From Candidatus Methanoperedens sp. (GTDB lineage: Archaea; Halobacteriota; Methanosarcinia; Methanosarcinales; Methanoperedenaceae): a stretch of 64,000 bases of DNA. How positions within the stretch are numbered: the first letter of the stretch is position 1; each line of letters opens with the position of its first letter. The stretch lies in assembly GCA_023249105.1 (NCBI GenBank), contig JAHFDG010000016.1, forward strand, positions 1 to 64,000. Direction: 5' to 3'. Shown piece by piece: positions 6,709 to 16,062 of this stretch. The position numbers were made by a program, and so were the translations under genes. The notes under the pieces are model-generated. The model did no database searches and was not told the origin of the DNA. It worked only from the letters and a program-made list of their open reading frames with translations.

Positions 6709-7719
6709 TCAAAAGAAGGTTCTCATTATTAAATACGTAGATGCGGAAATAAGCGCAGCCGCAGGTATTGTCAGAATCCATGCCCCCACAATCTTCCGCG
6801 CGATACCCCATCTCACCGCTGAAAGCTTATCGGTTGCCCCGACGCCCATTATCGAGGAGGATATTACGTGTGTGGTGCTGACAGGGATTCCCATGGCAGC
6901 CATGCTCGCAAGCACGATGCCACCTGATGTTTCGGCACAAAAACCCTGATAAGGTCTTAGCTTTGTTATCCTTTGCGCCATTGTTTTCACTATTCTCCAC
7001 CCGCCAAAAAAAGTGCCAAGCGATATGGATATGTGAGCTGCAAGTATAACCCATAAAGGCACCTTGAAAGTTGTAAGAGAACCGTATGCTACAAGCAGTA
7101 CCGTGATTATCCCCATCGTTTTTTGGGCGTCGTTAGTGCCGTGCGTGACCGAATAAAAAAAAGCTGAAAACAACTGAAGGCGTCTGAAATATTTGTTAAT
7201 CTTTGAAGGAGCGACCCTGTAGAATAGTCTGATAACAATTGTTGTCAGAATGAATGCAGCAACCATCCCGATAATAGGCGATATAACCATGAACGCAACT
7301 ACTTTTTCAACCCCGGCAGGATTAACAGAACTGCTCCCGATTGCAGCTAATCCTGCGCCTACAAGCCCGCCAACTAACGCATGGCTGCTTGATGTCGGAA
7401 GTCCCAGATACCATGTAATCAGGTCCCAGATGATAGCCCCGGCCAGTGCAGAAAATATCATTAAAACAAGAATCTCATTGTTAGGAGCCAGTTCTATATT
7501 CAGTATCCCTTTTCCAATAGTCGCAGCAATAGCGGTAGAGAAGAAAACGGGTCCAATCAGGTTTCCCACAGCAGCCATGCCGACTGCTCTTATTGGCGTC
7601 AATACCTTGGTGGCTACGACTGTTGAAATCGCATTAGCTGAGTCATGAAAACCGTTTATAAAATCAAAAAACAGAGCTAATACTACAGTAAAAATTATGA
7701 ATTCCTGCAAAAATAGCAA
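6709..7719 (-). CDS. pit: Low-affinity phosphate permease, Pit family
   Basis: Inorganic phosphate transporter of the PiT family (sodium- or proton-coupled), a polytopic membrane protein with about 10 segments. The two inverted signature repeats are seen as DFINGFHDSANAISTVVAT at the N-terminus and SVTHGTNDAQKTMG in the middle. The frame is open from 7782, but TTG at 7719 is preferred: it has AAGGTGG 4 nt upstream and starts the protein as MLFLQEF just before the first membrane helix. It follows the DUF47 gene by 11 bp, the usual partner arrangement. Confidence 0.92.
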   Translation of the reverse strand: MLFLQEFIIFTVVLALFFDFINGFHDSANAISTVVATKVLTPIRAVGMAAVGNLIGPVFFSTAIAATIGKGILNIELAPNNEILVLMIFSALAGAIIWDLITWYLGLPTSSSHALVGGLVGAGLAAIGSSSVNPAGVEKVVAFMVISPIIGMVAAFILTTIVIRLFYRVAPSKINKYFRRLQLFSAFFYSVTHGTNDAQKTMGIITVLLVAYGSLTTFKVPLWVILAAHISISLGTFFGGWRIVKTMAQRITKLRPYQGFCAETSGGIVLASMAAMGIPVSTTHVISSSIMGVGATDKLSAVRWGIARKIVGAWILTIPAAALISASTYLIMRTFF

Positions 7720-7730
7720 AATACCACCTT

Positions 7731-8360
7731 TTAGCTGTTCTTCACAACTATGTCGCTGATAACATTTGCAGCGTCCTCGCACTTATCAGTTGCAAACTCA
7801 AGGCGCTCGTACACCTCTTTCAGTTTCATTATCTCTATTGCATCTTTCCTTTTGAAAAGCTGCGCCACCGAAGTCTTATAAATATCATCTGCAACATTTT
7901 CAAGTCGGTTGACCTCGATACACCTTGTTTCTATTTCTTTGGGATTCTTAATGTTGCGTAAACCGGAAAGAGCAGTATTCAACTCAGTGGCTTGCTTCAC
8001 AAGCACTTCGGCTAATTTTATCATGCCTTCTTCCGGTTTTTCAATTTCATACAGGACAAGGCGCGTTGCGGTGCCGTCTATGTAATCAAGAACATCATCA
8101 AATGCCGAGGCAAGGGCGGATATGTCCTCATGGTCAATAGGAGTTATGAATGTCTTGTTGAGCTCTTCAAAAATCTCATGGACAAAATCGTCACCCTGGT
8201 GTTCTATGTCCTTTATTTTATGCTGCTTTTCCTTAATGTTTTCATAATTTTTGAGCATGTCAAGGAATGCAATCGACCCAACAAGCACATTTTGAGATTC
8301 GTTCTCCAGCATATTGAAAAAGTGTTTATCCTGTGGAATTATCCATTCTTTAAATCCCAT
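7731..8360 (-). CDS. DUF47/PhoU-like Pit accessory protein
   Basis: A 209-aa all-helical PhoU-related protein of the DUF47 (TIGR00153) family. The pattern IEHQGDDFVHEIFEELNKTFITPIDHEDI is characteristic. Such proteins sit upstream of pit genes and are thought to modulate the permease. Here it lies directly upstream of pit in the same operon. A 110-bp AT-rich gap separates it from phoU of the Pst operon, so it may have its own promoter. Confidence 0.9.
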   Translation of the reverse strand: MGFKEWIIPQDKHFFNMLENESQNVLVGSIAFLDMLKNYENIKEKQHKIKDIEHQGDDFVHEIFEELNKTFITPIDHEDISALASAFDDVLDYIDGTATRLVLYEIEKPEEGMIKLAEVLVKQATELNTALSGLRNIKNPKEIETRCIEVNRLENVADDIYKTSVAQLFKRKDAIEIMKLKEVYERLEFATDKCEDAANVISDIVVKNS

Positions 8361-8471: not shown

Positions 8472-9134
8472 TTAATTTAATTCGACTCGTTCCCCAGTAA
8501 CCATGAATACCACATTTTCACAGAGATTCGTTATGTGGTCTCCTATCCTCTCAAGATATCGCGCTACAAAAGTCAGATGTTGGGCGCCAGTTATCTTTTT
8601 TGGATCCTCGATCATATAGGAAATCAGCTCCCTTCTTATCTGGTCAAATAGTGCATCAATCTCATCATCTCTCCTTGCGACTTGCCTTGCAACCTCAACA
8701 TCCTTGTTTTCAAAGGCGCTCATGGTATCCGCCAGCATTTGCTGACATATCTCTGCCATTCTCGGTATGTCTATGAGGGGCTTTACAGGAGGCACATTCG
8801 CTGTCATCTTTGTAATAACCGCAATTTCCAGGGCAAGATCTCCCATCCGTTCAAGGTCAATAGACATTTTTAATACTGAGATAATGAGCCTCAAATCCCT
8901 CGCCATAGGCTGCTGGAGTGCAAGAAGGCGCATGCAATTCTCTTCAATGCTGTGATCAAGGGCATCGATCTCATTATCAATGTCAATGACCTTTTGAGCC
9001 ATCTCAACATCGCGATTCTTGAGAGATAGTACAGCATCTCCTATCGTCCTGCCTACAAGGTTTCCCATGATAACTATTTCTTCCTTCAACCTGTGAAGGT
9101 CTTTGTGATACGCTTCCCGAACCATATTATCCAA
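8472..9134 (-). CDS. phoU: Phosphate-specific transport system accessory protein PhoU
   Basis: A 220-aa PhoU with two three-helix repeats, each with the metal-binding pattern ([24 protein letters not shown] and [19 protein letters not shown]), and the conserved end [23 protein letters not shown]. PhoU links PstB activity to the phosphate response. It is the last gene of pstSCAB-phoU and overlaps the pstB stop by 8 bp. Confidence 0.95.
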
Positions 9135-9885
9135 ACCTCCCGACTATATAATCTTCAGTGCTCTTCTCCTTTGGTTTCTTAAATATCTGATCTGTTTCTC
9201 CAAACTCTATGAGCTTTCCATACAGAAAGAAAGCCGTATAATCGCTTACCCTTGCTGCCTGCTGCATATTATGCGTTACTATTACAATTGTATATTTTTC
9301 CTTCAGTTCTAACATTAAATCTTCTATCTTGCTTGTAGATATGGGATCTAAGGCTGAGCAGGGTTCATCAAACAGGATGATTTCAGGCTCAACCGCTAAT
9401 GCCCTTGCTATGCAGAGGCGCTGCTGCTGACCGCCCGATAAACTCACGCCCGATTTATTAAGGTCATTCTTAACTTCATCCCAGAGAGCAGCTTTTTTTA
9501 AGCTCTCCTCACTGATGGTATCAAGCGTCTTTTTATTCTTTATTCCGCTTAGTTTCAATCCAGCCACAACATTATCTCGTATGGACATTGTCGGAAATGG
9601 ATTGGGCTTCTGGAATACCATACCAATGCGCCTTCGTATATCCACCGGGTCGATATCACTATCGTAGATATCCGTGTCGTCAACCAGCACTTTCCCTGAG
9701 GCTTTTGCTTTAGGCACAACTTCATGCATTCTATTGAGGCATCGAATAAATGTGGATTTCCCGCATCCTGAAGGACCAATGATGGCTGTTATCATATTTT
9801 TCGCAATTCCAATATCGATGTTATGCAGTACCTGTTTGGCTCCAAACCATGCATTGAGATTTTCTACTGTGATCTTATTCTGCAT
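9127..9885 (-). CDS. pstB: Phosphate ABC transporter ATPase PstB
   Basis: A 252-aa ABC ATPase, close to the 250 aa usual for PstB. Walker [10 protein letters not shown] (about residues 37-45), Q-loop VFQKPNPFP typical of PstB, signature LSGGQQQR, Walker B IILFDEP and the switch His in IVTHNMQQA are all intact. It energises the PstCA permease at the cytoplasmic face. Confidence 0.96.
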
Positions 9886-9899
9886 TTATACTCCTTATA

Positions 9900-10736
9900 T
9901 TATACTCCATATTTTCTTCTAGTTACGAACCTCACTCCAATATTCAATATGAGAATCAAAATGATCAGGACAAGAGCTCCTGCCCACGCTTTAGCATGCC
10001 AGTCAGGGAAGGGTGTTATTGCATATGTATAAATTTGTACTGGCATGGTAGATATTGGTTTATCTAAACCGTTAGCCCAGAACATGTTGCCAAAAGAAGT
10101 AAACAAAAGAGGTGCGGTCTCACCTGATATCCTTGCAATAGAAAGTAAAGCGCCTGTTATTATGCCGCTTCTTGCGGTGCCAAGAACGATGTATAATGTT
10201 GTCTTCCACTTCGGTATCCCAAGCGCCAGGGAAGCTTCTTTAATTGAACCGGGAACAAGCCTGAGGGATTCCTCAGTAGTTCTTGTAACAATTGGTATCA
10301 TCAAAACCGACAGCGCCACCCCGCCTGCTATGGCAGAAAAACTTCCGAAATACAGGACTATGAAAGTATAACCGAACATCCCTGCCACTATTGAGGGTGT
10401 GCCAGTGAGTACATCAGCAACAAAACTTACAAAACGTCCAAATTTGTTCTGTCCATATTCGCAAAGATATACACCAGCGAGGATGCCCACAGGAAGCCCG
10501 ATTAAGCAGGCAATCCCCACGACTATGAAGGTCCCCTGGATAGCATTCCCAAGTCCACCTCCGGCTTCACCAACAGGTTTGGGGATCTGTGTAAGAAAAT
10601 CTATATTAACCGCTGATATCCCATTGATGGTTACCGTGTAAAGGATGCTCAGCAAAGGGATTATGGCAATTGCAACGCAGGCAGCTGTAAGGATTGACAT
10701 AACCCTGTCTATTATTTTTCTTTTATTCCATATCAC
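9900..10736 (-). CDS. pstA: Phosphate ABC transporter permease PstA
   Basis: A 278-aa membrane protein with six predicted segments and the ABC permease EAA-like loop (EASLALGIPKWKTTLYIVLGTARSG). The start GIYLCEYG-type region and the end NPF-like TYAITPFPDWH fit PstA. It overlaps pstC by 4 bp (ATGA) and precedes pstB by 14 bp. Confidence 0.95.
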   Translation of the reverse strand: MIWNKRKIIDRVMSILTAACVAIAIIPLLSILYTVTINGISAVNIDFLTQIPKPVGEAGGGLGNAIQGTFIVVGIACLIGLPVGILAGVYLCEYGQNKFGRFVSFVADVLTGTPSIVAGMFGYTFIVLYFGSFSAIAGGVALSVLMIPIVTRTTEESLRLVPGSIKEASLALGIPKWKTTLYIVLGTARSGIITGALLSIARISGETAPLLFTSFGNMFWANGLDKPISTMPVQIYTYAITPFPDWHAKAWAGALVLIILILILNIGVRFVTRRKYGV

Positions 10737-11686
10737 GTCACCCCACCACCTTCAACTTTAAGCAGTTTCCACACTAAAATCCTGGCTGCAATATTGATTA
10801 TGAAAGATATCACGAGGAGCAAAAACCCGATCTCAATAAGAGATGAAATGTAAAGCTTTGAGGTGGCTTCTGTGAACTCATTTGCAATAACCGAGGCCAT
10901 TGTGTATGATGGTGAGAAAAGCGATGCCGAGATCCTGGGACTGTTCCCGATGACCATGGTCACTGCCATTGTTTCCCCGATGGCGCGCCCAAAGCCAAGG
11001 ATTACAGCCCCGAATATCCCTGACCTGGCATAGGGAAGAACTGCAATCCGTGTGGTCTCCCATCCTGTAGCGCCGAGAGCAAGGGCTGCTTCCCTCTGAT
11101 GTGTGGGCACTGTCATGATGACTTCCCTGGATATCGATGAGGTTATAGGGATTATCATAATAGCGAGTATCACGCCGCCGGTGAGCATGGACAGACCGTA
11201 CATTGGACCCTGGAAGAGCGGCAGGAAACCAAGGTAAGTCGAAAGCGGCGGCGCAAGATAGTCGCGGATGAAAGGGGCGAGAATGAATATGCCCCAGAGC
11301 CCGATAATGACACTTGGAACTGCCGCCAGCAATTCTATGATGAAAGAGAGGGGTGTCCTCAGCTTTTCCGGGGCGAGTTCTGAGAGAAATATCGCTATCC
11401 CGAGGCTGAAGGGGACAGCTATAAGCAGGGCAAGGAATGACGAAACAATAGTACCGAAAATGAAAGGAAGAGCGCCGAATACCTCATTCACGGGATTCCA
11501 TGTTGATGTGGTCAGGAAACCCAAACCAAAAGTATTCCTTGAAAGTTGAGACTCTATAAAAAGCTCCCTGAACAATAAAAATGCAAGGACTATTACGCCC
11601 AGGGCAAATAAGCCGACTAAAGCTTCAAAAATAAAATCGCCGGAGAGTTTACTCCGGCCGAAAATGGAATATTTTATCTTATTCAT
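10733..11686 (-). CDS. pstC: Phosphate ABC transporter permease PstC
   Basis: A 317-aa permease with about six membrane segments; the cytoplasmic loop REAALALGATGWETTRIAVLPYARSG is the ABC-coupling helix, and RAIGETMAVTMVIGNSP is the conserved PstC segment. It forms the channel with PstA. Five bases separate it from the pstS stop. Confidence 0.95.
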   Translation of the reverse strand: MNKIKYSIFGRSKLSGDFIFEALVGLFALGVIVLAFLLFRELFIESQLSRNTFGLGFLTTSTWNPVNEVFGALPFIFGTIVSSFLALLIAVPFSLGIAIFLSELAPEKLRTPLSFIIELLAAVPSVIIGLWGIFILAPFIRDYLAPPLSTYLGFLPLFQGPMYGLSMLTGGVILAIMIIPITSSISREVIMTVPTHQREAALALGATGWETTRIAVLPYARSGIFGAVILGFGRAIGETMAVTMVIGNSPRISASLFSPSYTMASVIANEFTEATSKLYISSLIEIGFLLLVISFIINIAARILVWKLLKVEGGGVT

Positions 11687-11691
11687 CCCTT

Positions 11692-12813
11692 CTATCCCTG
11701 AATGAATGGTTGTCCATTGTAGTTCATAAGTTTTATGGTTCTTTCATTCAGGCTAACTACCTCGTCTGGAAGTGGCACGTATAACAGGTCAGAGGAATAT
11801 TTCTGACCATCGTGTACTGCCCACCAGATGAATTCTGCGAGCATTTTACCTTTTGTCTGATCTACTTGATTTTTGTAGACAAGAAGATAGGTGAAACTGC
11901 TTATGGGATACGAATTATCTCCCTGAGCATCAACAATACTCACAGATGCCCAGCTCACATCACCAGCAGGCAATATCGACACTGCGCCAGCAGCAGCGTT
12001 TGCAGTTGTTTCAAGTGTGGGCTCTATGAACTTTCCTGCTTTATTCTTGATATATGCGTATGAGATGTTCTGGAGTTTAGCATAAGCCAGCTCGATATAA
12101 CCTATAGAATAAGGGTTCTGGTTTAGGAGACCTGCAACACCTTCATTGCCTTTCCCGCCAAGACCTACCGGCCAGTTAACTGATTTACCCTTTCCCACCT
12201 TTGATTTCCAGTCAGAACTGACCGCAGAAAGATAATCCGAGAAGACGAAGGTTGTGCCGCTACCGTCGCTCCTGTGTGCCACTATAATGTCTTTTGCAGG
12301 GAACTGGATGCCAGGATTTAGCGAAACAATCTTTGGGTCATTCCATTTTGTGATTTTCCCGAGGAAAATATCAGCGATCACATCGCCGCTTAGCTTTACT
12401 CCCTTCTGTATGCCAGGAAGATTATACGCCACAACCACGGCGCCTATAGATTCTGGTATTTGCAGGATTCCGGAGACATTTGCATATTCCTGCTCTGTAA
12501 GAGGCGCGTCACTTGCGCCAAAATCTACCGTTCTTGCTGTTATCTGCTTTATACCAGCACCGCTTCCAACGCTCTGGTAATTAATCTGGATGTTTGTTTT
12601 TATTTTGTTATATTCCGAACTCCATTTTGATATAAGGGGATATGGGAATGTTGCTCCTGCGCCGTTTAATGTTACGGTTTCCGGGGCTTTTGTGGGCTGC
12701 ACGGTTGCTGTCGGTTGTACTGTAGGCTGTACTTCGGAAGGCTGCTTGCTTACGCATCCGGCTAACAGCACGCCTGCCAGAATCAGAATTAGTATTATCT
12801 TTAATCGATTCAT
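11692..12813 (-). CDS. pstS: Phosphate-binding lipoprotein PstS
   Basis: The 373-aa binding protein of the Pst system. The N-terminus is a lipoprotein signal with lipobox LAGC (Cys20), followed by a Thr/Pro/Gln-rich linker. The mature protein starts TLNGAGATFPYPL, the classical PstS phosphate-binding start, and HRSDGSGTTFVFSDYL supplies more ligands. The N-terminal Cys would anchor it outside the membrane. The gene follows pho element 1 and heads the operon. Confidence 0.96.
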   Translation of the reverse strand: MNRLKIILILILAGVLLAGCVSKQPSEVQPTVQPTATVQPTKAPETVTLNGAGATFPYPLISKWSSEYNKIKTNIQINYQSVGSGAGIKQITARTVDFGASDAPLTEQEYANVSGILQIPESIGAVVVAYNLPGIQKGVKLSGDVIADIFLGKITKWNDPKIVSLNPGIQFPAKDIIVAHRSDGSGTTFVFSDYLSAVSSDWKSKVGKGKSVNWPVGLGGKGNEGVAGLLNQNPYSIGYIELAYAKLQNISYAYIKNKAGKFIEPTLETTANAAAGAVSILPAGDVSWASVSIVDAQGDNSYPISSFTYLLVYKNQVDQTKGKMLAEFIWWAVHDGQKYSSDLLYVPLPDEVVSLNERTIKLMNYNGQPFIQG

Positions 12814-13015
12814 TTTGTTTCATCACCAGCAGGAATTTTAGCACCAGATAATATATAGTTTCCCCCAAGAATCTATAGAGACTATAGAAAATCAGTAAAA
12901 ATTTTAAAAATTCAGAACTTTTTTCCTCTGCCTCATGAAATTCTCTTTCTGCTGTGAGAATTTCATTAATCCTCTTTGCTTTCTCTGGCTCGATGTAAAC
13001 AACTCTTGCTTTCAT
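12608..13015 (-). CDS. Doubtful 135-aa ORF overlapping the pstS start
   Basis: The ATG at 13015 lies 7 nt behind the TIM-barrel gene stop, with a GGGGG ribosome site. The first 40 residues (MKARVVYIEPEKAKRINEIL then a charged helix) look protein-like. The frame then runs through pho element 1 and 206 bp of pstS in another frame, where the sequence looks accidental. The real product may be short, or the gene may be a remnant whose 3' end was replaced by the pstS promoter. No family is recognised. Confidence 0.3.
   Translation of the reverse strand: MKARVVYIEPEKAKRINEILTAEREFHEAEEKSSEFLKFLLIFYSLYRFLGETIYYLVLKFLLVMKQNESIKDNTNSDSGRRAVSRMRKQAAFRSTAYSTTDSNRAAHKSPGNRNIKRRRSNIPISPYIKMEFGI
12850..12897 (-). 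promoter_or_regulatory. Pho element 1 (pstS promoter)
   Basis: First of three 48-bp elements with the same anatomy. Read towards pstS: ACTGAT box, A/T-rich middle with TATAGATT, TTGG and purines, and a TATATATT box 37 nt from the start codon. On the plus strand AATCTATA (12870) and ATCAGTA (12891) lie exactly 21 nt apart, as in elements 2 and 3. It is probably the BRE/TATA promoter with an upstream operator. Confidence 0.75.
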
Positions 13016-13022
13016 TTTCCCC

Positions 13023-13910
13023 CTAAACGCATACCACAGCAGGCCTAACGTCACAGGTTATTATGGGAGACATTAAACCAGCTTTCAAATTGCGAAATTC
13101 TCTTATTTGTACAAGGCTTTTGATGATATCCTCTCTTGATGAGTGTTTAATTTCAAGAATCAGGTTCCTTGCATTAGTTTTTAAAATGTTTTTAAATACT
13201 CCCTTGAAGTTTATTTTTCCATGCCCTATAGGAAGGTGGCGGTCTCCAAACATTGCTTCTTCAGACTCCAGAATGCCAAAGTTATCATGAAGATGCATTT
13301 GATGTATGTAGTTACCTAATTCAAAATAATCTTCCAGAGATATCCCATAAGCATTGGAGGCAATAAATGCATGACCAATGTCCAGATTTATCTTTAAATT
13401 CTCAGAACCCACCATTTCAATTATATGAAAAATTTCCCGGGGGAATACACCAATTTTATTTCCTCCATCCCTGTCAAAAAGGTTCTCTAAGAGCAGGATG
13501 ACACCGTATTCTTCGGCGAGAGCACATAGGCGAATTAAATTAAGTATATTCAAGTTAAGACACTTTCTTTCGCCATTCTGACTACCTGGATGAACAACTA
13601 TGTATCCTGTTTCTATTTCTGCGGCAATCTTGAGGACTTTTTCCATAACAGTGAAATTTTTTCCATTGTTAGTTGAAAAATCTATCTTTATTCCCTCAAT
13701 TCTGGAATCAATGTGCGGGGCATGGATAGTAAATTCAGTGCCAAAAGATGAGGCAAGATATGTAGCTTTTGATAATAATTCTTTCTCTTTTTGTTCATCT
13801 AAAAAATCCACCCTGTCAAGACCAAGCTCAATAACTTCCACTTCCTGAGCATCGATTTCTCCTCCAAATTCTTTTATCCGGGGAGAGTTTATGCCTATTT
13901 TTGTTTTCAT
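13023..13910 (-). CDS. Sugar phosphate isomerase/AP endonuclease-like TIM-barrel protein
   Basis: A 295-aa protein of the xylose isomerase-like TIM-barrel superfamily (AP endonuclease 2 fold). Metal-site segments in order: FTIHAPHID, VVHPGSQ, ILLLENLF, NLDIGHAF, HQMHLHDN, PIGHGKINF and LILEIKHS. Whether it acts on a sugar phosphate or on DNA cannot be told. It has its own pho element 23 nt upstream, so it probably belongs to the phosphate regulon. It may use phosphorylated organics or repair DNA under starvation, but that is inference. The C-terminal 25 residues look unlike the family. Confidence 0.75.
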   Translation of the reverse strand: MKTKIGINSPRIKEFGGEIDAQEVEVIELGLDRVDFLDEQKEKELLSKATYLASSFGTEFTIHAPHIDSRIEGIKIDFSTNNGKNFTVMEKVLKIAAEIETGYIVVHPGSQNGERKCLNLNILNLIRLCALAEEYGVILLLENLFDRDGGNKIGVFPREIFHIIEMVGSENLKINLDIGHAFIASNAYGISLEDYFELGNYIHQMHLHDNFGILESEEAMFGDRHLPIGHGKINFKGVFKNILKTNARNLILEIKHSSREDIIKSLVQIREFRNLKAGLMSPIITCDVRPAVVCV

Positions 13911-13932
13911 ATAATGAAGTTGTACGTTAGAT

Positions 13933-13980
13933 ATTATATATTTTCTCCAAATAATCTATATATGCTAAAGAAAATCAGTA
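13933..13980 (-). promoter_or_regulatory. Pho element 2 (TIM-barrel gene promoter)
   Basis: Same layout as element 1. AATCTATA (13953) and ATCAGTA (13974) are 21 nt apart; the TATATATT box (about 13935-13942) lies 23-30 nt from the ATG at 13910, so the transcript is probably leaderless or nearly so. Confidence 0.72.
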
Positions 13981-14031
13981 TAAATATGAATTGAGTAAAT
14001 TCATCTCACAGGCAAAGAAATAAAATCGCAC

Positions 14032-14439
14032 CTAAACCTTCTCCGGCGAGTACCTGACAGCCAGCACCCTTATCACTCCAAGTACAAACAGCAGTGCTGA
14101 GAGGGCGAAAATTGTTTCAAATCCAAATGATCTGGAATAAAGCCCGACCGTGATCTCACGCATAGCTATTAAAATCGTGACATCGGTTATGTCGGTGAGC
14201 TTTATTCTTTCGTGTTTGGAATAGTCCGCAAAGGTCTTGAAGAACTCTATCACAATAAAAAGCGTGAGAACGTTAGTAACTATTTTGTTAAAACCGCCCT
14301 CAAGTGAATCTATCGCCACAGAGCGAAGATCTAATAAAATCCGCAGCATACCTGCAATAAGGGTCAACAGCAATACATACAGGATGATTGTAACAATGGA
14401 GTCGGTAACTTTTTTGAAAAATTTTGTGTGATCTATCAC
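14032..14439 (-). CDS. psiE: PsiE-family phosphate-starvation-inducible membrane protein
   Basis: A 135-aa membrane protein with four predicted helices, matching PsiE: an N-terminal helix after a short basic start, VIEFFKTFADYSKHERIKLTDITDVTILIAMREI in the middle (the conserved core), and a final helix. The role of PsiE is unknown, but its induction by phosphate starvation in E. coli fits this locus. The start is GTG at 14439, overlapping the stop of the 25-aa ORF (GTGA). Confidence 0.85.
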   Translation of the reverse strand: MIDHTKFFKKVTDSIVTIILYVLLLTLIAGMLRILLDLRSVAIDSLEGGFNKIVTNVLTLFIVIEFFKTFADYSKHERIKLTDITDVTILIAMREITVGLYSRSFGFETIFALSALLFVLGVIRVLAVRYSPEKV

Positions 14440-14513
14440 TTAACCACCATCCAGAGTGCAAATATGAGAAGAAGTAGTATCAGTAAAAATTCTATTTTGT
14501 TAAGGTTTTGCAT
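14436..14513 (-). CDS. 25-aa hydrophobic microprotein coupled to psiE
   Basis: The peptide starts MQNLNKIEFLLILLLLIFAL and continues with WMVVK: essentially one membrane helix with a basic tail. Its stop overlaps the psiE GTG (GTGA), and its ATG lies inside the last codons of the 86-aa ORF. The coupling on both sides argues that it is translated. A role as a PsiE partner is a guess. Confidence 0.5.
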   Translation of the reverse strand: MQNLNKIEFLLILLLLIFALWMVVK

Positions 14514-14760
14514 TCTCTTTATCTGTCCCGTTCAGTTCATTTATTCTTCCAGCCTGCACTTTGGAGATCAACGCCTGCAAGTCTTTGTTCAAAAGAGCTG
14601 GCTGCATTTGCTTTTCATCGATAGGAATATCTTGCATGCTTTTTTCAACCGAAATTAGTATTTTAAGTCTGCCCCTGCGCATGAAGAATAAACCTTCGGT
14701 GGCGCTACTGTAATCCCTGAACTCTGTATCTTCTTTTTCTGCATGTACCATTTTAATCAC
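14500..14760 (-). CDS. 86-aa unknown protein in the psiE operon
   Basis: No family is recognised. It has an acidic start, a basic centre FFMRRGRLKILISVE and a helical C-terminus. The start is either GTG at 14760 or ATG at 14751 (MVHAEKED), and neither has a strong ribosome site. It lies between a 42-aa and a 25-aa ORF and upstream of psiE, all downstream of pho element 3. Confidence 0.5.
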   Translation of the reverse strand: MIKMVHAEKEDTEFRDYSSATEGLFFMRRGRLKILISVEKSMQDIPIDEKQMQPALLNKDLQALISKVQAGRINELNGTDKENAKP

Positions 14761-14825
14761 TTGAAGTTCAGAAAAAAAAAATCCATTTGTAAGCTCTGCA
14801 TTTTAATTCGCTCCATCGCTATGTC

Positions 14826-14954
14826 TCACTTGGCTGCAAATCCGCCGCGCAGGAACAGATAAAGCTCCTGGTCTTCTTTTCCCAGTTCCTCAAATTCCTC
14901 TTTGAATGTGTTATGCTGCACACCGCCCGTTCTTCCAAGTTTGTTTTCTTTCAT
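14826..14954 (-). CDS. 42-aa microprotein, first gene after pho element 3
   Basis: Frame: MKENKLGRTGGVQHN at the start, an acidic helix TFKEEFEELGKEDQELY, then LFLRGGFAAK. ATG at 14954 lies 31 nt from pho element 3, the same spacing as pstS and the TIM-barrel gene, so it is most likely the first cistron of the psiE operon. No homologue is recognised. Confidence 0.5.
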   Translation of the reverse strand: MKENKLGRTGGVQHNTFKEEFEELGKEDQELYLFLRGGFAAK

Positions 14955-14984
14955 TCTATCACAAATAGATATTCATCCCATAAA

Positions 14985-15032
14985 AGTATATATTTTGTCC
15001 CAAGAATCTATATATAGTATAAAATATCAGTA
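14985..15032. promoter_or_regulatory. Pho element 3, divergent promoter
   Basis: Third copy: AATCTATA (15005) and ATCAGTA (15026) are again 21 nt apart. Leftwards, a TATATATT box (about 14987-14994) serves the 42-aa/psiE operon. Rightwards, CTATATATAG (15008-15017) could be the TATA box of the AbrB-PhoU gene, which starts 17 nt beyond the element. The regulator would thus share a control site with its targets. Confidence 0.72.
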
Positions 15033-15048
15033 TATTAAGGAGATAAAT

Positions 15049-16062
15049 ATGGAAACACGAAAAGTCTATGTAAGCGGCGGTTCGACCTATGTGCTCTCGC
15101 TTCCAAAGAAATGGGTCAAGAAAGCTAACCTGAAAGCTGGGGACTCACTGGTTGTAACTGAGCAGGGCAGTTCATTACTGATTGAGACCAGTGTAATTGA
15201 AAAAGAGTCGCAGGTAAAGGAGATTAAAATCTCACAAGTAACATCGAGCGATGCTCTTGAGCGCATAATAATCGCCTTCTATCTTGTTGGTTATGATACA
15301 ATCAAGATAAAACTGGACAGGAAAGACCATCTACCTTACAGAAAGAGCATACGAAAGGTTATGGACTACCTGATAGGCGTTGAGATAGTCGAGGATACCA
15401 ACGACTCGATGACTCTTGAGATAATGGTGGACTACAAACGCATGATGACCATGCAGATACTCCAGAGGATGTACTCCATCAACAGGTCGATGCTTCTTGA
15501 CTTAGGCAAAGCTTTGAAAACTACTGATATCGGGCTTGCAAAAGATGTAATCGTGAGGGAGAGGGAAATAGACAGGCTTTATTTTCTGGTTGTCAGGCAG
15601 CTCAAGAGCGCTGTGGAATACCAGCAGATTGCGGAAAAGCTGGGAATAGAAAACCAGAGGGATTGTCTCGGTTACAGGATTGCAGTCAAAGTGCTTGAGC
15701 GTATTGCAGACCACATTGAGAACATAGCAAAAAGTTATATTCAATTAATGGAGATACAAAAGGATGCGCAGCTTGAGGCTTTTATAAAACTTAACAACAG
15801 CATAGTCCTGACCTTCGAAAAGTCGGTTCACGCATTGTTTACAAGAAATCATGCAACTGCTGAGACAATTTTCCAGGAATTGAAGGAGATTAAAAAGTCC
15901 CACTCCGATATTTCAAATGAATTACTCCAGCCCAAAAATATCCAATCTGCTATCTTGCAAAAAACAATGCTGGACAGTTTCGAGAGAATAGCAAGTTACA
16001 GCGGGGATATTGCTGAGATAGCTATTAATATGTCTGCCGGCTCATTGACTTTTGATAAATAA
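15049..16062 (+). CDS. AbrB-PhoU fusion, probable phosphate-regulon regulator
   Basis: A 337-aa protein. Residues 1-45 form a SpoVT/AbrB swapped-hairpin DNA-binding domain (RKVYVSGGSTYVLSLPKKW, LKAGDSLVV); the rest is PhoU-like, with helices such as DLGKALKTTDIGLAKDVIVREREIDRLYFLV and ERIADHIENIAK. This archaeal architecture is commonly taken as a phosphate regulator. The frame is open from 14902, but ATG at 15049 has AAGGAG at optimal spacing and begins exactly at the AbrB domain. It is divergent from the psiE operon across pho element 3 and is the natural candidate to bind all three elements. Confidence 0.88.
   Translation: METRKVYVSGGSTYVLSLPKKWVKKANLKAGDSLVVTEQGSSLLIETSVIEKESQVKEIKISQVTSSDALERIIIAFYLVGYDTIKIKLDRKDHLPYRKSIRKVMDYLIGVEIVEDTNDSMTLEIMVDYKRMMTMQILQRMYSINRSMLLDLGKALKTTDIGLAKDVIVREREIDRLYFLVVRQLKSAVEYQQIAEKLGIENQRDCLGYRIAVKVLERIADHIENIAKSYIQLMEIQKDAQLEAFIKLNNSIVLTFEKSVHALFTRNHATAETIFQELKEIKKSHSDISNELLQPKNIQSAILQKTMLDSFERIASYSGDIAEIAINMSAGSLTFDK

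Follow-up and report, generated by a model that had tools for sequence, protein, structure and literature searches.

A 48-bp element that is almost unchanged across the Methanoperedenaceae is very probably the phosphate-starvation control site of this lineage, as judged from sequence comparison. The existence of the element and its association with phosphate genes are near certain. We read it as a lineage-specific archaeal Pho box with AbrB-PhoU, which joins an AbrB-type DNA-binding domain to PhoU repeats, as its likely regulator on positional and phylogenetic evidence, and we put the probability of this reading at about 0.8.

Three elements at phosphate promoters

The window, i.e., the whole stretch of DNA analysed, covers 64,000 nt of contig JAHFDG010000016.1 (assembly GCA_023249105.1) from the 3.28-Mb genome of Candidatus Methanoperedens sp. 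Its relevant genes and elements are, in order of position:

6709-8360: DUF47-PiT gene; the element is absent here but present in some relatives
8472..9134, minus strand: phoU, without a DNA-binding domain (TIGR02135), last gene of an apparent pstSCAB-phoU operon
9127..9885, minus strand: pstB (TIGR00972)
9900..10736, minus strand: pstA (TIGR00974)
10733..11686, minus strand: pstC (TIGR02138)
11692..12813, minus strand: pstS (TIGR00975; PF12849)
12850..12897, minus strand: candidate Pho element 1, before pstS; TATATA 12852-12857, AATCTATA 12870-12877, ATCAGTA 12891-12897
13023..13910, minus strand: TIM-barrel gene (AP_endonuc_2, PF01261); closest solved structure MJ1311 (3wqo)
13933..13980, minus strand: candidate Pho element 2, before the TIM-barrel gene; TATATA 13935-13940, AATCTATA from 13953
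14032..14439, minus strand: psiE, phosphate-starvation-inducible E family (PF06146)
14500..14760, minus strand: 86-aa ORF, in the same cluster as the 42-aa gene; conserved in some relatives
14826..14954, minus strand: gene for a 42-aa small protein, first behind element 3; conserved C-terminus ELYLFLRGGFAAK; conserved at 24 family sites
14985..15032, minus strand: candidate Pho element 3, between the 42-aa/86-aa/psiE cluster (minus strand) and AbrB-PhoU (plus strand); AATCTATA from 15005
15049..16062, plus strand: AbrB-PhoU (337 aa), with a MazE/AbrB DNA-binding domain, a middle alpha/beta domain and two PhoU repeats; proposed regulator

A preliminary description of this DNA had aligned the three elements without gaps, and the alignment is real: all pairs are 81% identical, and 35 of the 48 columns are identical across all three copies, whereas 20,000 random triples from the region averaged 3.2 such columns and never exceeded 15. 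The 21-nt spacing that it gave from AATCTATA to ATCAGTA is exact in every copy, with no mismatches, and its placement of the TATATA boxes 23-37 nt before minus-strand starts holds to within one base, the distances being 38 nt for pstS (start 12813), 24 nt for the TIM-barrel gene (13910) and 32 nt for the 42-aa ORF (14954). Element 3 likewise adjoins the AbrB-PhoU gene, ending 16 nt before the ATG at 15049. The genome scan that had been proposed found AATCTATA-N13-ATCAGTA exactly three times, all in 2.2 kb of the window, and the pattern search returned no one-mismatch match anywhere in the genome; there were 12 two-mismatch matches, scattered, and the reversed-pattern control likewise gave 12.

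On the target strand the element has the structure TACTGATTTT-N10-TATAGATT-N-TTGNGANAA-NN-TATATA, and the family consensus is TACTGATTTTaTATAGtATaTATAGATTcTTGgGAtAAaaTATATA. Because AATMTATA and ATCAGTA were forced by the family search (below), their conservation is not independent evidence; no such constraint applied to TTT, TTGNGA, AA and TATATA, which are near-invariant all the same. Within the element, dyad and repeat analysis found a direct repeat of 20 bp, TANNGATT, together with weak dyads spaced by about 10 bp. At type-A AbrB-PhoU genes (type B is a diverged paralogue, below) the motif reads ..CTATAAAATATCAGTA.., which places a TATA-like box some 30 nt upstream of the ATG, and the element thus overlaps what is probably the promoter of the regulator itself; in the window, the plus-strand TATA box of AbrB-PhoU is likely to be TATAAAATA (~15018-15026), inside element 3. 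About ten AbrB-PhoU genes that lack a divergent gene keep the far-side TATATA; this points to a single protein site spanning all 48 bp, and the TATATA may be part of this site rather than of a promoter.

Two other accounts of the element were rejected. It is not a candidate for a transcribed RNA element, since it lies upstream of TATA and hence outside the minus-strand transcripts; nor is it a generic BRE/TATA, given the genome-scan result and the near-confinement of the half-element to the family in a 393-genome sample of the phylum (below).

Distribution in the family and in distant archaea

A slightly relaxed pattern, AATMTATA-N13-ATCAGTA (M = A or C), occurred 92 times in 30 of the 34 Methanoperedenaceae genomes searched, and its reversed control did not occur in these 34 genomes; other genomes of the order gave only seven scattered matches. 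At the 92 distinct sites, tblastn on the fetched surroundings classified the gene that comes first on the TATA side as pstS in 26 cases, the 42-aa/psiE cluster in 26, type-B AbrB-PhoU in 13, the TIM-barrel gene in eight and DUF47-PiT in four, and type-A AbrB-PhoU adjoins the ATCAGTA side of 26 sites. A phosphate gene adjoins 89 of the 92 sites, counting pstS, the 42-aa/psiE cluster, DUF47-PiT, AbrB-PhoU A or B, and the TIM-barrel gene, which was classed here by its repeated co-location with phosphate genes and the element alone. Carriers of the element on other contigs include DUF47-PiT and the second AbrB-PhoU paralogue. This distribution, with a variant of the element before alkaline phosphatase genes, supports the Pho-box interpretation offered in the preliminary description: rather than standing at many unrelated promoters or being missing from other phosphate genes, the element lies beside the TATA box of pst operons (26 family pstS sites and distant ones), is common to other phosphate genes and is rare elsewhere.

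Spacing to the start codon is also regular. The pstS start lies mostly 32-38 nt from the core end and the TIM-barrel start 23 nt from it in six of eight cases; the type-A AbrB-PhoU start lies 13-18 nt from the element's other side, with one case at 7 nt. Thirty type-A AbrB-PhoU genes were examined, and each carries the element, or what can still be recognised as a remnant of it, ~7-18 nt upstream of its ATG. Three genomes with no exact match (G015, G028, G030) have near matches at AbrB-PhoU, and one (G033, only 67% complete) has neither element nor AbrB-PhoU. Wherever the element was found in the family, the same genome also has AbrB-PhoU (A or B).

Three sites have no adjoining phosphate gene. 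At L100 (3197; G009:C170) a PhaE-like ORF (PHA synthase subunit) begins 116 nt downstream of an exact element, and a link between phosphate limitation and polyhydroxyalkanoate storage is possible there. At L018 (3833) a gene for an S-layer protein (PF07752), beside a pst locus, follows an exact element at a distance of 152-171 nt. The third, L120, is an exact site with no clear phosphate gene nearby.

At 24 of the 92 family sites the element is followed first by the 42-aa ORF, a recurrence that marks this ORF as a real gene, for a small conserved protein of the presumed phosphate response. In this it recalls the small DUF1127 proteins, which act on bacterial PhoR (PMC12501420). Relatives often have a second small ORF (~52 aa, MNTLDILIYICEKREEF...) between the 42-aa gene and psiE (L113 5172, L027 9251 and others). 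No Pfam match was found for the 42-aa protein, the 86-aa ORF or this ~52-aa ORF.

Distant archaea, with AbrB-PhoU proteins that are only 48-57% identical, have related elements at AbrB-PhoU or pstS: L052 and L051 (SZUA-236, BMS3Abin16), L045 (a Hydrothermarchaeota MAG) and L044; at L174, in the same genome as L048, a related element precedes pstS. In several of these and L195 the element lies in a divergent pstS/AbrB-PhoU gap, and at L045, L051 and L052 the other side of the divergent gap holds pstS, or a small ORF and pstS. In a 393-genome sample of the phylum the exact half-element was confined to the family bar three matches, one of which (G326, L195) is in a pstS/AbrB-PhoU gap; this match is suggestive only, because the site is also a good BRE/TATA. 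Variant half-elements stand before phoA in five genomes (G004, G006, G007, G022, G024), and a variant element stands upstream of a PiT gene in G187 (L190). A subclass of the element, AATAATCTATATAATCTATATAAAATCAATA, occurs before phoA and before a small ORF (VKYTEGDTVKFKLKSGELLEGDVLF...) (L198, L221, L192, L209).

AbrB-PhoU as candidate regulator

The N-terminal MazE/AbrB domain (PF04014) matched residues 8-46 of AbrB-PhoU with 34 bits against a cut-off of 24.7, and keeps RK-GGST-SLPKKW; PhoU (PF01895) matched in two stretches with an E value of 2.8e-23. The predicted structure has a mean pLDDT of 87.6 and a TM-score of 0.80 to PhoU 1t72. Confidence in the AbrB part is low, as is to be expected when a swapped dimer is modelled as a single chain. 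Residues ~56-125 are modelled as an alpha/beta domain with weak structural similarity to DNA/RNA-binding Alba (1udv, E 0.52; 8xap). The protein's closest relatives come from Methanoperedens MAGs and reach 94% identity. The type-B paralogue, diverged to ~31% identity, is itself behind an element at 13 sites. In one genome (G007) type B is the only form, yet pstS, psiE, the TIM-barrel gene and the type-B gene all retain an element; the box is thus read either by both paralogues or by some other factor. A PhoB-type Pho system was also considered and rejected: the PhoB/OmpR-type domain PF00486 was not found in the genome, and was found in 10 of 14 controls.

In the mechanism that we propose, a long regulator site and the BRE/TATA would form one unit of constant spacing before pstSCAB-phoU, the TIM-barrel gene and the 42-aa/psiE cluster. 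AbrB-PhoU would most likely bind this site as dimers, via its N-terminal AbrB/MazE domain. Bacterial PhoU reads phosphate status from the Pst transporter; the PhoU domain of AbrB-PhoU would do likewise, probably from the same source. At low phosphate, AbrB-PhoU bound just upstream of BRE/TATA would help to recruit TFB/TBP, and with the element over the TATA region of its own gene it might also repress itself, thus controlling both phosphate uptake and its own level. That AbrB-PhoU binds, that the signal is phosphate and that the effect is activation, not repression, are inferences; toward activation, taken by itself, we lean only slightly.

The same Pho box and regulator might instead work by repression, AbrB-PhoU covering the BRE/TATA of all targets in high phosphate and being released by starvation. 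We regard this as a serious possibility, though we would incline against it. PhoU limits the bacterial Pho regulon, and the TTGNGANAA block overlaps the BRE, so that a repressor fits as well as an activator. Two further points favour repression: conservation continues without a break through the BRE and TATA box, whose spacing is fixed, and the element covers the TATA-box region of AbrB-PhoU itself. The strongest conserved blocks (TACTGAT, TATAGATT), however, lie ~12-40 bp upstream of TATA, which is the typical archaeal activator position. Loss of bacterial phoU2 raises expression of Pi transport genes, as discussed in PMC6267482; haloarchaeal pho-boxes are reportedly needed for upregulation (PMC6560208).

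It is unlikely that some other, unlinked phosphate regulator uses the element as its site, with AbrB-PhoU as only one of its targets. The AbrB-PhoU genes do carry the element like other targets, and G007 retains elements without a type-A gene; but AbrB-PhoU (A or B) is the DNA-binding protein present at element loci and co-occurring with the element throughout the family, the one genome without it (G033) also lacks the element, the element accompanies it into distant lineages, and no PhoB-type protein was found in the genome. We give practically no credence to the idea that the three copies stem from recent local duplication of one promoter and mean, in regulatory terms, only a strong BRE/TATA. 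The genes are adjacent with one element each, as duplication would have it, but the 60-bp flanks of the elements are only 25-40% identical, i.e., at background, and the three are therefore not one duplicated block. The same genes, moreover, own an element throughout the family, also on separate contigs, conservation extends 40 bp beyond TATA, and the pattern is absent from other promoters of the genome; unrelated flanks, genome scan and family survey together refute duplication.

The Pho box with AbrB-PhoU as its regulator may also be given a broader form, to which we give slightly less than even odds. AbrB-PhoU would be a one-protein replacement for the bacterial PhoU-PhoR-PhoB chain, its PhoU half sensing the state of Pst and its AbrB half switching the 48-bp box at phosphate genes and, reversed, over its own TATA; protein and box would form a cassette common to several deeply separated archaeal lineages.

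Known phosphate systems and significance

The likeness to the bacterial PhoB Pho box (PhoR-PhoB-PhoU) is that of a common cis element at pst, psiE, phoA and phoU-linked genes; the difference is that here the proposed DNA-binding domain is fused to PhoU, and no PhoB/OmpR-type domain was found in the genome. The N-terminal PF04014 domain resembles AbrB/MazE-type DNA-binding proteins; unlike those acting alone or as antitoxin, AbrB here is fused to an alpha/beta domain and two PhoU repeats. Among archaea, the kind of system is already known from haloarchaea. Pho-boxes in two Halobacterium salinarum pst promoters, attributed to PhoU regulators, are essential for upregulation, as reported in the available part of PMC6560208 (citing Furtwangler et al. 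2010). The present element shares with this pst1/pst2 pho-box (P-box) a promoter site at pst operons and, as far as that text goes, the implication of PhoU-type regulators; compared by description only, it differs in its 48-bp length and rigid TATA spacing, and in marking psiE, DUF47-PiT, phoA (variant), the TIM-barrel gene and the regulator gene too. In Haloferax volcanii, PhoU2 (HVO_2374) adjoins pstS1 according to the available part of PMC6267482, which describes no DNA site for it; it is set beside AbrB-PhoU by description. In Methanosarcina mazei, Pi starvation induces pstSCAB-phoU and phoA (PMC6864096). No publication on the present element was found in the open-access literature, and as far as that literature goes its sequence, rigid architecture, regulon and reach seem new.

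Phosphate control at the DNA level is little understood in archaea outside haloarchaea. For the ANME-2d methane oxidisers there is now a precise site and a regulon that takes in pst, psiE, PiT, phoA, two AbrB-PhoU paralogues, a TIM-barrel enzyme and small proteins. There is also a strong candidate regulator, the suspected role of AbrB-PhoU now being directly testable by one binding assay, and a promoter signature that can be used to find phosphate-regulated genes in uncultured archaea.
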